61,465 nt of DNA from Stenotrophomonas indicatrix. GTDB lineage: Bacteria > Pseudomonadota > Gammaproteobacteria > Xanthomonadales > Xanthomonadaceae. Made by a program: the position numbers and the translations under genes. How positions within the stretch are numbered: position 1 is the stretch's first letter; every line of letters begins with the position of its first letter. The stretch spans positions 4,590,001-4,651,465 of the forward strand of contig CP168152.1 of NCBI GenBank assembly GCA_041545745.1. The letters are read 5' to 3'. A model generated the notes under the pieces. It was not told where the DNA came from and did no database searches. It was given only the letters and a program-made list of their open reading frames with translations. This document shows positions 52,797 through 58,780 of the stretch, piece after piece.

Positions 52797-53016
52797 TGCG
52801 ACTTCCCCAAGCGGTTTGTGATGGGCGTCAGTATGCGGCGGGAATGTGACAGGTTGGGGGAGCCGGTGTTCGGCTGCCTGCGGTCGGCCAATGATCGCGC
52901 TGATCTCCATTCGGATTCGATTCTGCAATTTTTCCGATTGAACCGCGGAAAGGATGGGTCATAGCCTCGACTGACCAACACCGATGTTGGCAGAGGACCA
53001 GACCATGGAGAAAACA

Positions 53017-54099
53017 ATGTACGTGCCCATCCTGAAATGGCGGCAAGGTGAGTACCTCGCTGTAGGTCGTACACGCGAGACCATCAAGGACTGGATGTAT
53101 CCCCTGTTCGAGATCCCGGTCGAACAGTGGGACTTCGAGAACGATGCGCCCGCCAAGTCGCTAGACGACCATCTGAAGAATGTCGGCAAGCGATTGAGCA
53201 CCAACTGGAAGAAGCGCCGCTGCCTGTTCGATTCACCACATCTTGCCGGCGACGACACGATGGCCAATGGAGACCATCACCTCGCGCGCGTCTTCGATCT
53301 CGCGCGGGCGTCGGCCTGCCAGGCCATCCCTGTCACCGGTCTCGGTCGGCATCTGGTGTATCAGCAGGCAGTGGCCAGCATCATCGTCCAGGATGGTCGT
53401 GGGTGCGCACTGCGCTTGATTCCCGATGACCTGGAAGGCAACCCTTCAGCAAAGATCGACGGCTTGATGCATCTCCTGGGCGTGACACCAGAACAGGTGG
53501 ACATCGTTCTGGACAGTGCGGCAGATGTCGCAGATTCTCCGACCCTGCAGGCATCGTTCTGGCAGGCGTGGATCGCTGGATTGCCACACATGGACCGGTG
53601 GAGATCGCTCACCGTGGCCGGCGGAAGCTTCCCTGCGAGCCTGAACCCGTCAGCAGGGTATCGCCCTCATGGAGACGTTCATCGTCGCGAATGGCGTGGG
53701 TACACCCGGCTCGCTGCCAGTGCCCCACAGCGTCAGCCGTGGTTCGGCGACTACGGATGCGCGTCACCACAGACCGAGATGATGGACCCACGTCTGTTCG
53801 ACCCGAATGCAAAGATCAAGTACACGATCGATGACCAGTGGCGGATCATCGTCGGCACCCAGGTCAAGCGCAATGGCCGTGACCAGTACCGCGACCTGTG
53901 CAGGCACCTGATCTCTGATCGCCCTGTGGTATTCATGGGGAGAACCTACAGTGCTGGCGACGAATACATCGAAGACTGCGCCAACAACGTCGCCAGCACA
54001 GGCGGCAGTTCGACCTGGCCGACGGTGGCGACCAACCACCACCTGACTAAGGTTGTTCGCGACCTCGCCAATCTGTCCGGCGCTTCAACTGTTCCCTGA
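53017..54099 (+). CDS. Beta_protein-family (T4 beta protein-like) accessory protein
   Basis: 360 residues. The opening MYVPILKWRQGEYLAVG and PLFEIPVEQWD match the 'beta family protein' (PF14350) group named after a phage T4 protein; the biochemical role is unknown. Later segments include HLARVFDLARAS, VDIVLDSAADV and a C-terminal RIIVGTQVKRNGRDQYRDLC. No signal peptide. ATG 53017 has GGAG six bases upstream; ATG 53005 and 52984 are alternatives. The region is visibly less GC-rich than its flanks. The end overlaps the convergent sce7726-family gene by 53 bases, and the pair looks like a mobile module. Confidence 0.7.
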   Translation: MYVPILKWRQGEYLAVGRTRETIKDWMYPLFEIPVEQWDFENDAPAKSLDDHLKNVGKRLSTNWKKRRCLFDSPHLAGDDTMANGDHHLARVFDLARASACQAIPVTGLGRHLVYQQAVASIIVQDGRGCALRLIPDDLEGNPSAKIDGLMHLLGVTPEQVDIVLDSAADVADSPTLQASFWQAWIAGLPHMDRWRSLTVAGGSFPASLNPSAGYRPHGDVHRREWRGYTRLAASAPQRQPWFGDYGCASPQTEMMDPRLFDPNAKIKYTIDDQWRIIVGTQVKRNGRDQYRDLCRHLISDRPVVFMGRTYSAGDEYIEDCANNVASTGGSSTWPTVATNHHLTKVVRDLANLSGASTVP

Positions 54100-54634
54100 C
54101 CAGCGTGCGGATCTCGGCGAGGCTGTATACCTCTCCAAGCCGCTCGCACAGTGCTGTGCGGTTGCCGCGCAGCGCTGCCTTGTCCGGGTTCCTTGCACAG
54201 ATCAGTGTCGCGATCTCATCACGCCAGAGAAGTGCGGCAACGTCCATCCCGATGACCGACGGATTGAGTCTTGCAGGTCGCAAAAGTTCCATTCGCACCG
54301 CATTGCGCGCGCCGCGCGATACCGTTCGTACGCCCCACCACTCCGGCAAGACCTCCAGTGCGTGGTCAAGATGCCGCTGCCCCACGACAATCGTCGCTTT
54401 GTCGAGAACGTTTGAATAGAACTGCTGCTGCACAGGAAGCCTGCGCAGCGTGTCGACGTCGCTCTTGATCTCGTAACCGTGCAGATGCCCATTGATGACA
54501 CAGATATCAACACGGCAGGCGCCGCGAGCGAGCCCCATCTCCTCCACGACCAGCGTATGGGGATTGGCCACGTGCTCGGCGATCACCTTGCGAAGGAGCG
54601 CGGATCTGACGTCGCTGTCGGTTATCGGGTCCAT
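54047..54634 (-). CDS. sce7726-family protein, PD-(D/E)XK nuclease-like
   Basis: 195 residues, no signal peptide. The N-terminal half has the layout of a PD-(D/E)XK nuclease core: E31/E32 in LVVEEMGL, D43 in RVDICVI, E55-x-K57 in GYEIKSD, then QQQFYSNVLDKATIVVG, where a Gln often follows. The family name is recalled from proteins next to sce7725 in Sorangium. The C-terminal half (about 120-195) is helical with LWRDEIATLI. Genuine nuclease activity is inference. ATG 54634 lies 70 bases beyond the mnmE stop. Confidence 0.7.
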   Translation of the reverse strand: MDPITDSDVRSALLRKVIAEHVANPHTLVVEEMGLARGACRVDICVINGHLHGYEIKSDVDTLRRLPVQQQFYSNVLDKATIVVGQRHLDHALEVLPEWWGVRTVSRGARNAVRMELLRPARLNPSVIGMDVAALLWRDEIATLICARNPDKAALRGNRTALCERLGEVYSLAEIRTLVREQLKRRTDWRGREQP

Positions 54635-54703
54635 TGTCGAATCGTACCAAGAGGGAGTCGCTGTACTGCATGAAACCCAGGCATGTCGCAGTTCACCGCG
54701 GCA

Positions 54704-56053
54704 CTATTTGCCGATGCAGAAACTGGAGAAAATCCTTCCCAGAAGATCATCGGCACTCATCTGCCCGGTGATCTCGCCCAGTGCGTCGTGCGCCAGCCGC
54801 AGCTCTTCCGCCGCCAGTTCCAGGCGCTCGTGCACCAACTCTCCGTCCGCCCGCTGCGCATGTCCCTGCGCGCGCTCGATGGCATCCACGTGGCGCGTAC
54901 GCGCGGAGAACTCACCGTCCACCTGCTCGCCCGCACCGGCCGAGGCGATCGAGCGCAGGCGCGCATGCAGGTCGTCCAGTCCCGCGCCGGTGGCAGCGGA
55001 AACGAACACGCGGTCCGGGTCGTCCAGCACCGGCATCGCATCCAGCAGATCCGACTTGTTGTGGATGTACACCTTGTGCGGCACCGCCTTCATCGCATCA
55101 CCGATGGCTGCTTCGCCCGCGGCCGGGTCGCGCGCATCCAGCACGATCAAGGCCAGATCGGTGCGTTCGATCTCCGCGCGCGCGCGGCGCATGCCTTCGC
55201 GTTCGATGGCATCGCCGCCATCGCGCAGGCCGGCGGTGTCGACCAGGGTCAGTTCAAGTCCGTCCAGTCGGATGGTCTCGCGCAGCGTGTCGCGGGTGGT
55301 GCCGGCAATGTCGGTGACGATGGCGCGCTCGCTGCCGGCCAGCGCGTTCAACAGCGAACTCTTGCCGGCATTCGGTGGGCCGATCAGCACGGCATGCAGG
55401 CCATCGCGCAGGCGACGGCCGCGTTCGGCATCACGACGCAGCAAGGCCAGGTCGCTACGCGCCTGCTGCAGCCCGCGCCGCACCTGTGCGCCGCCGAGCG
55501 TATCCAGCGGTTCGTCGGCGAAGTCGATGGCCGCCTCCACGTGGATGCGGAGCAGCACCAGCTGTTCGACCACAGTGTCGATGCGACGCGAGAACACACC
55601 ATCCAGCGAACGGCGTGCAGCACGTGCGGCGCGGTTGTCACCGGCCGCGATCAGATCGGCGATGGCTTCGGCCTGTGCCAGGTCGAGCTTGCCGTTGAGA
55701 AACGCGCGCTCGCTGAACTCACCTGGCCGTGCCTGGCGCGCGCCAAGTGCGATGCAGCGCGCGACCAGTTGCTGCAGCAGCACCGGGCTGCCATGGCCCT
55801 GCAGCTCCACCACTTCTTCGCCGGTGAAGCTGTTCGGCGCCGGGAACCACAGCACGATGCCGTCGTCGATTACCTCGCCGTCGGCATCGCGCAGGCGCGC
55901 GTAGTGCGCATGGCGCGGGCGCAGGGTCGGAGCGCCGAGCGCGTTGGCGATGGCTGCAGCACGCGGGCCTGACAGGCGCAGCAAACCTACGCCGCCCGCA
56001 CCGGGTGCGCTGGCAATGGCCACGATAGTCTCGGTACGCGTCATGTCGTTCAT
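54704..56053 (-). CDS. mnmE: tRNA-modifying GTPase MnmE
   Basis: With MnmG it puts the carboxymethylaminomethyl or aminomethyl group on the wobble uridine of several tRNAs. 449 residues: N-terminal tetrahydrofolate-binding domain ([20 protein letters not shown]), helical domain, inserted G domain with [14 protein letters not shown] and [10 protein letters not shown], and the invariant C-terminal FCIGK with its catalytic Cys. It begins three bases after the upstream gene's stop and is likely co-transcribed with it. Confidence 0.96.
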
Positions 56054-56056
56054 CGC

Positions 56057-58726
56057 TCAGAGCTTCTCCAGCTGCGCGCGCGCTTGTGCCGCACCACTGC
56101 CTTGCGGCTGCAGCGCCAGGTAAGTGGTATAGGCCTGCTTCGCCTTGGCTTTGTCGCCCGCGTGGAAGTACGCGTCACCCAGGTTGAGATGGGCCACTGC
56201 GCGCGACGGATCGATCTTCAGTGTGTTCTCCAGCCAACGCGCCGCTTCGGCATAGCGTTGCTGGCGGTAGTAGACGAAGCCGAGGTTGTTCGCCGCCTGG
56301 GCGAAGTCCGGGCGCAGCTTCAGCGCCTCGGCGAACTGCACGGCAGCTTCGTCGTAGCGCTTCTCGCGGTACAGCTGCAGGCCACGGTCGTTGGCCTGCT
56401 GCGAGCGCTGGCGGTCCGAGGCCGGTGCGGCCGTCGGCACCACCAGCCTGGCCTTGCCGCCCTGCAGATCGGCCACGGTCACTGGCGCTTCGCTGTTCTT
56501 GGCATCCTGGGCAGCGTCGACCTTGTTGTTCAGGGCGATTGCATCGGCGGTCAGCTGGCGCGTATCGGCGTTGAGGTATTCCTGGCTGTCCGGCACCTGG
56601 AACACGAACTCGCCGCCCTGCGAGCCGGGCAGGCTGCCGAAGGCCGGCGTCTGCTGCGAGACCGCCGACACCGCCGGCGCCACATAGGCGGCCAGCTCGG
56701 TACCGGTGATCAGGCCATCGCCGTTGAGATCGCCCTTGCCGGCCAAGGCCTGCAGCAGCACCCAGGTAAACACCGAGTGCCCGTTCGGGCCGGCATCGGC
56801 GACCTGCTGGTCGGCGCCGCCGGCGGTCAGCATCTGCCGCGCGCTGCGGCGTGCGTTCTCGCGCAGGAACGACGACGACGACGGGCCGCCGCGGGTCAGG
56901 CCGAGGCCGCTGTAGCAGGCATCCATCACGAACATCACATGCTTGGCCTGCATGCTCTCGGCGATGTTCTGGATGTCGGTCATCGCGATGGCATCGGTGG
57001 CGAATTCCTTCGGGTCCGAATCGACCGGGATGATGTAGCCGAGGTCGCGCCCGGATGCCAGCTGACGGGTAGCACCGTGGCCGGCGAAGAACACGAACAC
57101 GCGATCATTCCTGCCGGTGCGGTCGTCGGACAGCCGGTCGTGGAAGGCGGCCAGGATGTTGTTGCGGGTAGCCTGCTCGTTCTTCAGTACGATCACCTGC
57201 GAGGACGGGAAGCCGAACTGCCCGGTCAGCGTATCGGCCACGGCCTGGGCATCGTGGCTGGCGTACTCCAGCTTGGGCCACTTGGCGTAGTTGTCGATGC
57301 CGACCACGATCGCCCACGATTTTTCATAGCCGGTGGTGACGGTGGCATCGCGGTCGCTGCCCTTGGGCGGCCGGGCGACGCTGAAGTCGCGGCCATTCCA
57401 GCCGGCGAACTGGTAGCCGTCAGCGATCAGCCGATCCAGGATCTGCGGCAGTGCCTTCACCGCGCGGTCGTGGATATCGTGGAACAGGATGATGCCGCGC
57501 TGTTCCTTGTTCACCTGGTCGAGCACGCGCTGCACGATCGATTCCGGCACCGGGTCGGCCCAGTCCATCGAATCGATGTTCCACATGATCGACTTCAGGC
57601 CCGCTTCGTTCAGCAGCTGCAGGCCTTCGGCGTTGCGCGCGCCATACGGGAAGCGGAACAGCGGTGCACGCTTGCTGTCGACGTCCTTCAGCAGGGTGTC
57701 GGTGTCCAGCACCTGCTGGCGCAGCGCATCGCCGGTGGTACGCGACAGCTGCGCATGGGTCAGGCTGTGGTTGCCGACGGCGTAGCCCTCTTCCATCAGG
57801 GTGCGGCTGATCTTCGCCATCGGCCCAAGGCTGACCTTGCCGTCGGTGTCGACCTTGCCCAGGTTGCGGCCGACCTCGAAGAACACGCCCGGTACGTCGT
57901 AGCGCTTGAGGATGGCCACCACTTCATCGGTATAGGCCTTGTGCGGGCCATCGTCGAAGGTCAGCACCACCGTCTTCGGCGGCAGGTTGCGGCCGAAGAT
58001 CTCGCGGTCGCTGTCCTTCATCGACATCGGGTACGGCTCGATCACGCCGTAGTCGCGCAGGATCCCTTCGCGGCTGTAGTCCTTGTGCAGGTGCGCGATG
58101 TAGTCGTCCCACTTCTCGCGCTTCAGGTCGATGGCACGGGTGCGCTCGAAGCGGCTGAAGATGCGGGTCAGTTCCTGGTTGTAGTTGCGCTCGATCTCGT
58201 CCAGCGCCTCCAGGTCTTCGCCGATGCGCTGGTGCAGCTTCACCGCCGGCAACGAGGAATCGGCGCCGATGCGTTCGTGCAGGTCACGCAGCACTTCGCG
58301 GAACGCCAAGCGATCGGCATCGAACAGTTCGGGCGCCGACTCGATGTAATCCAGCACCGTGGCCAGGGTAGCGAAGCGCTGCGGGCTGGTGCCACGCAGC
58401 AGGGTATCGAACTGCGTGGCAATGGCACCGCGCTGTTCCAGGCCATCGTGGAACAGCTGCTGGCCGATGCGGGTGGAGGTGGTGCGATCAGCCGCAGGCT
58501 GCTGTTCCTCATCGGCCAGCAGCACGATGATCCGGCGATAGCCGTCGAGCTGCTTCTGCAATGCGCCAAGCAGCGGCGCGGCGGCAGGGTCGGCGGCGGC
58601 AGCGGCCTGTGCGCTCGGCTGGGTGACTGCCGCCGGTGCCTGCGCGTCCTTGTCGCTGCAGCCGGCCACGAGCAGGGTCAGCAGCAGGCTGGGCAGGAAC
58701 AGACGAAACGACGGCGCACGCGGCAT
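56057..58726 (-). CDS. Lipoprotein: polysaccharide deacetylase + caspase (C14) + EF-hand + TPR
   Basis: An 889-residue multi-domain protein. The signal ends LLVAGC (lipidated Cys23), so it is exported and membrane-anchored. About 40-240 is helical. A NodB deacetylase domain follows (250-440): TFDDGPH (256-262), metal His pair in NHSLTH (H320, H324), RFPYG (358-362) and FHD (H416). Then a caspase-like peptidase (468-715) with catalytic H550 in FFAGHG and C604 in DACYSG. Inside it lies a canonical EF-hand loop D666-x-N-x-D-G-x-I-x3-E677, which suggests calcium control. TPR repeats fill about 775-880. All active-site residues are present. The start is ATG 58726; TTG 58741 is possible. It sits between yidC and mnmE. 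Substrates are unknown. Confidence 0.9.
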   Translation of the reverse strand: MPRAPSFRLFLPSLLLTLLVAGCSDKDAQAPAAVTQPSAQAAAAADPAAAPLLGALQKQLDGYRRIIVLLADEEQQPAADRTTSTRIGQQLFHDGLEQRGAIATQFDTLLRGTSPQRFATLATVLDYIESAPELFDADRLAFREVLRDLHERIGADSSLPAVKLHQRIGEDLEALDEIERNYNQELTRIFSRFERTRAIDLKREKWDDYIAHLHKDYSREGILRDYGVIEPYPMSMKDSDREIFGRNLPPKTVVLTFDDGPHKAYTDEVVAILKRYDVPGVFFEVGRNLGKVDTDGKVSLGPMAKISRTLMEEGYAVGNHSLTHAQLSRTTGDALRQQVLDTDTLLKDVDSKRAPLFRFPYGARNAEGLQLLNEAGLKSIMWNIDSMDWADPVPESIVQRVLDQVNKEQRGIILFHDIHDRAVKALPQILDRLIADGYQFAGWNGRDFSVARPPKGSDRDATVTTGYEKSWAIVVGIDNYAKWPKLEYASHDAQAVADTLTGQFGFPSSQVIVLKNEQATRNNILAAFHDRLSDDRTGRNDRVFVFFAGHGATRQLASGRDLGYIIPVDSDPKEFATDAIAMTDIQNIAESMQAKHVMFVMDACYSGLGLTRGGPSSSSFLRENARRSARQMLTAGGADQQVADAGPNGHSVFTWVLLQALAGKGDLNGDGLITGTELAAYVAPAVSAVSQQTPAFGSLPGSQGGEFVFQVPDSQEYLNADTRQLTADAIALNNKVDAAQDAKNSEAPVTVADLQGGKARLVVPTAAPASDRQRSQQANDRGLQLYREKRYDEAAVQFAEALKLRPDFAQAANNLGFVYYRQQRYAEAARWLENTLKIDPSRAVAHLNLGDAYFHAGDKAKAKQAYTTYLALQPQGSGAAQARAQLEKL

Positions 58727-58780
58727 GGCGGACTCGAACAAAGGGAAAGAGGGTGCCGGCGATTCTAACGCCGCATGCGA

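Follow-up and report, generated by a model that had tools for sequence, protein, structure and literature searches.

The stretch of DNA analysed here (the window) comprises 61,465 nucleotides of Stenotrophomonas indicatrix, positions 4,590,001 to 4,651,465 of contig CP168152.1, and the element in question is a pair of convergent genes, a beta-family gene and a sce7726-family gene, inserted between glpQ and mnmE. The features of this locus are the following, in window coordinates.

52881..54696, no strand: cassette inserted into the glpQ-mnmE interval, with an uncertainty of about 16 bases at its left edge and about 8 at its right edge
53005..54099, + strand: gene of the beta family, product predicted to be a TIM barrel; could start at 53017 instead
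53230..53751, + strand: span of the beta codons D72, R133, D166 and D245, at the C-terminal ends of predicted barrel strands
54047..54099, no strand: tail-to-tail coding overlap of 53 bp, codon position 1 opposite position 1
54047..54634, - strand: sce7726-family gene, P4 cII homologue, predicted PD-(D/E)XK nuclease
54464..54541, - strand: nuclease motif E32 ... D43 ... E55-x-K57, invariant in 31 of 31 alignment rows

The edges of the cassette were placed against the empty sites of six relatives, with which homology ends at 52864-52880 and restarts at 54697-54705. The insert of about 1.8 kb is taken up by the two genes and flanked by glpQ, the next gene upstream of beta and divergent from it, and by mnmE. 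For beta, the ATG at 53005 agrees with homologues of 364 amino acids. The product was assigned to the Beta_protein family (PF14350, E 1.2e-78) and that of the other gene to the sce7726 family (NF033832, E 4e-46), the latter also matching the PADLOC cll model. The guanine-plus-cytosine (GC) fraction of the pair is 0.605, compared with a mean of 0.674 (standard deviation 0.018) in 1630-bp windows across the 61 kb; this is the lowest value found, reached by 7 of 1197 windows, every one of them overlapping the pair. The two convergent genes, their 53-base overlap, the lower GC and the membership of one product in the phage-named Beta_protein family had all been proposed in a first-pass annotation of this DNA, and all are borne out.

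The overlap is constrained in both frames. Among six of the seven copies that Stenotrophomonas genomes carry here (all but L003, whose length differs), third codon positions inside the overlap are 100% identical in beta and 95% in sce7726, and outside it 71%; the higher identity inside therefore indicates that both overlapping frames are under constraint, and a chance overlap of open reading frames (ORFs) is ruled out. The wider sample comprises 52 Beta loci (44 from genomes and 8 viral) gathered by Beta alone, with a scan that used one peptide pattern plus relatives of the window Beta and so samples window-like proteins; they form 33 clusters at 70% identity and 18 at 50%. By record title the taxa include Proteobacteria, an Acidobacterium (Granulicella), Anaerolineales, Elusimicrobiota and Gastranaerophilales, some phyla being represented through metagenome-assembled genomes. 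A convergent overlapping sce7726 gene was identified at 50 of the 52 loci, in one phase at all 50, with 14-140 bp between the stops. A coding overlap held in one phase across phyla is unusual. Counting against the one-phase rule is the distant locus L010, with an overlap of 4 in another phase, and against the overlap rule L183 (overlap 0) and P4 (a gap of 27 bp). As to the two remaining Beta loci, L022 (Pseudomonas) has Beta with neither sce7726 nor sce7725 detected and is an exception to linkage, and L057 stops at the contig edge.

The same layout and phase were identified in E. coli Rac-SA53 (a type present in 93 of 5426 E. coli genomes), in a Mycolicibacterium phage and in a Gordonia phage, as well as in six of seven plasmid loci examined from 27 plasmid records with a match, the seventh carrying Beta and an XRE gene and lacking sce7726; relatives of the pair thus sit in prophages and plasmids. 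The two families are also co-inherited. Within the genus (91 genomes) Beta occurs in 10 genomes, sce7726 in 10 and both, adjacent to each other, in 9, which answers the co-occurrence check proposed at first pass; within the class (369 genomes) the counts are 8, 8 and 5. In these samples, where sce7726 lacks Beta it adjoins a sce7725-family frame (3/3 class genomes, one of the frames being short at about 90 codons, and 1/1 genus genomes), and where Beta lacks sce7726 it adjoins an XRE/IrrE-peptidase gene (likewise 3/3 and 1/1). Beta and sce7726 distances correlate at r 0.916 over 45 loci, a value reached in 0 of 2000 permutations; this test omitted L066 (sce7726 split between frames), L013, L014 and near-identical loci.

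The sce7726 product has a predicted PD-(D/E)XK core fold carrying the E/D/ExK residues. The residues E32, D43, E55, K57, Q69 and Y73 are invariant in a 31-row alignment, and the D43 and E55-x-K57 core read earlier from the sequence agrees with the predicted fold, which holds the nuclease motif. This assignment is made because of structure comparison by VIA-align together with the motif, and not through Foldseek, where the model had no match at E up to 0.001; a sequence search of the PDB was likewise without a convincing match (best E 0.47). In predicted fold and E/D/ExK residues the protein resembles the PD-(D/E)XK nucleases PaqCI, Can2/Card1, SfsA and XisH, but it differs from them in a C-terminal helical part of its own, with conserved LLWRDE and R-x-x-W-R.

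For Beta the predicted fold is a TIM barrel, whose strand ends carry conserved residues. D72, R133, D166 and D245 are invariant in 30 of 30 alignment rows; when P4 Beta and other distant rows are added, D166 and D245 remain invariant (10/10) and D72 and R133 are kept in at least 90%. Foldseek returned nine matches for the Beta model at E <= 0.001, barrels with low TM-score, and the PDB sequence search gave no match at E up to 1.

Sequence profiles identify the two window genes as homologues of beta and cII from P4, in which these two together with gop form the gop-beta-cII system. P4 CII matches the sce7726 family by profile (2.5e-44), HHalign pairs P4 Beta with the Beta profile (probability 97.7, E 2e-12), and the P4 RefSeq record itself names the products 'beta family protein' and 'sce7726 family protein'. 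In P4, gop and beta lie on the + strand and cII on the - strand, so that beta and cII converge as they do in the window. The differences are that the window lacks gop, that the two genes overlap by 53 bp in the window, compared with a gap of 27 bp between them in P4, that the window sce7726 protein has 195 amino acids and P4 CII 264, and that the Beta proteins are about 20% identical. The gop-beta-cII system has been shown experimentally to guard against lambda and P1 (PMC9122126). The first-pass annotation, which overlooked this kinship, had guessed at an anti-phage or toxin-like system; the anti-phage part of the guess is now better supported, because P4 beta and cII belong to a protective system. 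Its statement that no role is established holds for the pair alone within the literature searched, where no description of a beta/sce7726 pair lacking gop was found in open-licence PMC articles, but not for the relatives. A 2026 paper counts sce7726 and beta proteins among uncharacterised ones (PMC13414232).

Two further systems share one component each with the pair. The first is PD-lambda-2, formed by a HigB-like protein, an Xre-peptidase and Beta; in E. coli its third component is reported as essential to defence and as kin of a P4 phage antitoxin (PMC9519451). The window Beta matches the PADLOC PD-Lambda-2_C model (8.5e-51), but the window pair has no adjacent A or B gene and adds a nuclease. 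Neither a HigB-like A gene nor an Xre-peptidase B gene was found upstream of the window Beta, where glpQ lies instead, and no B-like gene was identified near Beta in the Stenotrophomonas loci L016-L019 (L016 starts at a contig end). Across the 52 loci, an XRE-peptidase gene like PD-lambda-2_B stands directly upstream of Beta in 25, preceded in each case by a DUF6932-like gene rather than HigB (domains checked in two loci), and this arrangement adjoins the pair in 24, the 25th being cut at a contig end. In a quick, unrooted Beta tree of 49 rows, with long branches for P4, L012, L013 and L014 and with near-identical loci and two loci lacking sce7726 omitted, the XRE-peptidase loci fall into a single clade (24 rows, support 82) and all remaining rows are in the two-gene state, which amounts to one change overall; the window Beta clusters with those of two-gene loci from Stenotrophomonas, Burkholderia, Variovorax and Luteibacter. 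A decayed remnant left by loss of an upstream gene was considered and not favoured, two-gene and XRE-peptidase loci differing by that one change, which in an unrooted tree may be a gain or a loss. Rhizobial plasmids carry a four-gene form (L172 3249-6609, L173 3324-6627 and L178 3249-6609) comprising a small gene (DUF6932 in L172), an XRE-peptidase gene, beta and a convergent sce7726, with a reverse transcriptase gene just upstream in L172 and L178. In genome G089 (L109 7545-10360) the genes before a divergent version of the pair, which overlaps by 17 in the same phase, are one for an IrrE-like peptidase and one whose product, on inspection by eye, looks like a membrane protein; this may be a third arrangement.

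The second system is the sce7725/sce7726 pair, which a P. aeruginosa integrative element is reported to carry (PMC9394441) and which shares the nuclease family and has a partner of about 310 amino acids; it differs in that sce7725 lies downstream of sce7726 and in the same direction, as in genome G002 (L111 7725-9333). Comparison of sce7725 with Beta by HHalign gave a probability of 1.5 and E 0.034, and a small search matched one sce7725 frame (L189) to the Beta profile with E 4e-5; kinship between them is a lead only. A PDB sequence search with sce7725 gave a best E of 0.99. The sce7725 family is widespread, with at least 5497 proteins, and no Pfam domain appeared among the 120 proteins listed.

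The glpQ-mnmE interval was compared in 89 of the 91 genus genomes, one with partial mnmE and one without a full match being omitted. The pair is present in seven (in G061 the contig ends before glpQ), so it is not universal in the genus; the compact module at a variable site foreseen at first pass is indeed two genes filling one insert. Less than 300 bp separate the matched gene ends in 53 genomes, the interval is larger in 26, and three showed no glpQ in the stretch. Intervals of about 1.8-3 kb account for 14 of the 26 larger ones, and 13 of those 14 are filled in large part by an ORF that encodes a P-loop motif and is probably a gene for an ordinary ATPase. Those inserts that were searched for domains hold a DUF1016 nuclease (PADLOC PDC-S02), RhuM (PDC-S05), a methylase with Mrr, a helix-turn-helix methyltransferase protein, a protein with a weak BRCT match and one ORF without a family. 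Their coordinates, where delimited, are as follows.

L141 1887-4975: methylase-Mrr pair
L128 479-1528: DUF1016 nuclease
L143 448-1494: RhuM
L080 423-1367: protein with weak BRCT match

The varied inserts, the near-empty sites and the candidate-defence genes found across genomes mark the glpQ-mnmE interval as a swap site where small genes, often candidates for defence, replace one another. Both frames of the pair are without internal stops in all seven carriers. Compared with four of the six other carriers, the window has a third-position identity of 0.53-0.58 in the pair and 0.68-0.70 in mnmE, so that simple vertical inheritance with mnmE is unlikely, with the proviso that the lower third-position GC of the pair also cuts chance identity. 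SGI1-type islands at mnmE are characterized by an integrase and a duplicated mnmE 3' end. Entry of this type, suggested at first pass, is unsupported: the small insert is taken up by two genes and the mnmE end is intact and not duplicated, its last bases occurring once in the window with up to 3 mismatches allowed. No integrase was seen in the insert, although no search aimed at integrase families was made.

Taken together, the explanation that we favour on balance, with some reserve, is that the pair is a gop-less two-gene relative of gop-beta-cII, in which sce7726, the CII relative, would be the nuclease effector and Beta both its sensor and its brake. The TIM-barrel protein would restrain the nuclease and sense infection; a phage interfering with Beta, or giving the signal that Beta perceives, would release the nuclease, which would then cleave the DNA of the phage or, in abortive infection, that of the cell. 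The two genes would be transcribed towards each other, presumably from separate promoters, the conserved overlap keeping them linked and perhaps coupling their expression through antisense transcripts. Through its shared parts the pair joins gop-beta-cII, PD-lambda-2 and sce7725/sce7726, with a predicted chemistry for two of those parts (a TIM barrel and a nuclease), and as a minimal two-gene version it makes the role of CII addressable without the Gop toxin.

Several points weigh against this explanation. Gop and Beta are the probable toxin-antitoxin pair of P4, Beta being the likely antitoxin (PMC9122126), and gop is absent from the cassette: the space between glpQ and beta, of about 76 to 200 bp depending on the glpQ start, is too short for the 133 amino acids of Gop. 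P4 Gop had no match in the organism's own genome either, in a search without a positive control that shows little, and the PADLOC P4 'beta' model does not list the window Beta at E up to 1. Phage records with a sce7726 match number 47 and those with a Beta match two (tblastn, E 0.01), and Myxococcus phage Mx4 has a sce7726 homologue inside a row of phage genes (L015 5004-5573) with neither Beta nor sce7725 beside it in the 10.5 kb fetched; the nuclease can therefore stand without either partner. Finally, the conservation at the strand ends of Beta fits an enzyme better than a simple inhibitor.

This last point leads to the strongest alternative, which we regard as unlikely but serious: Beta itself would be an enzyme that marks DNA, a nucleotide or a protein, its product guiding the nuclease or protecting against it, and sce7726 would cut the marked or unmarked target in the manner of restriction-modification. 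It is weakened by the lack of an identified substrate or cofactor motif in Beta and of any sequence match to a solved structure in the search above, and by the occurrence of Beta without sce7726 at PD-lambda-2-type loci. A toxin-antitoxin or addiction module, with sce7726 as toxin and Beta as antitoxin, kept mainly since its loss kills, would fit the likely antitoxin role of P4 Beta and the related pairs on plasmids and prophages, but the genes converge and form no operon, and some genomes of the genus have a chromosomal copy at the one site and others lack it, so we consider it improbable. Least probable is a phage or satellite pair with another use (DNA processing, lysogeny or mobile-element competition) stranded in the chromosome, since despite relatives in the P4, Rac-SA53, Mycofy1 and Gordonia phage records and the many Beta-less sce7726-like genes of phages, all seven carriers keep both frames without internal stops, and the overlap shows dual-frame constraint.

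Beyond the gop-less relative of gop-beta-cII, we advance more tentatively, as a possibility in which we place limited confidence, that the overlapping pair might be a self-sufficient immune unit and the old shared core of several defence systems. Its two members, a TIM-barrel protein that may be an enzyme and a PD-(D/E)XK nuclease, would be held together by an antisense overlap that codes on both strands and keeps one phase across phyla, and toxin-type cassettes (Gop in P4, DUF6932 and XRE-peptidase elsewhere) would have been added to this core.

Two minor observations concern the surroundings of the locus. Empty glpQ-mnmE sites (L081 and L090, at about 1420-1500) bear hairpin-like repeats starting GTAGAGCCGAGC, which resemble Stenotrophomonas repetitive extragenic palindromic (REP) elements. 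Beside mnmE, at 56057-58741 on the - strand, lies a gene for a protein of 894 amino acids that combines a polysaccharide deacetylase domain, a caspase domain (PF00656, 4.1e-22) and TPR repeats.
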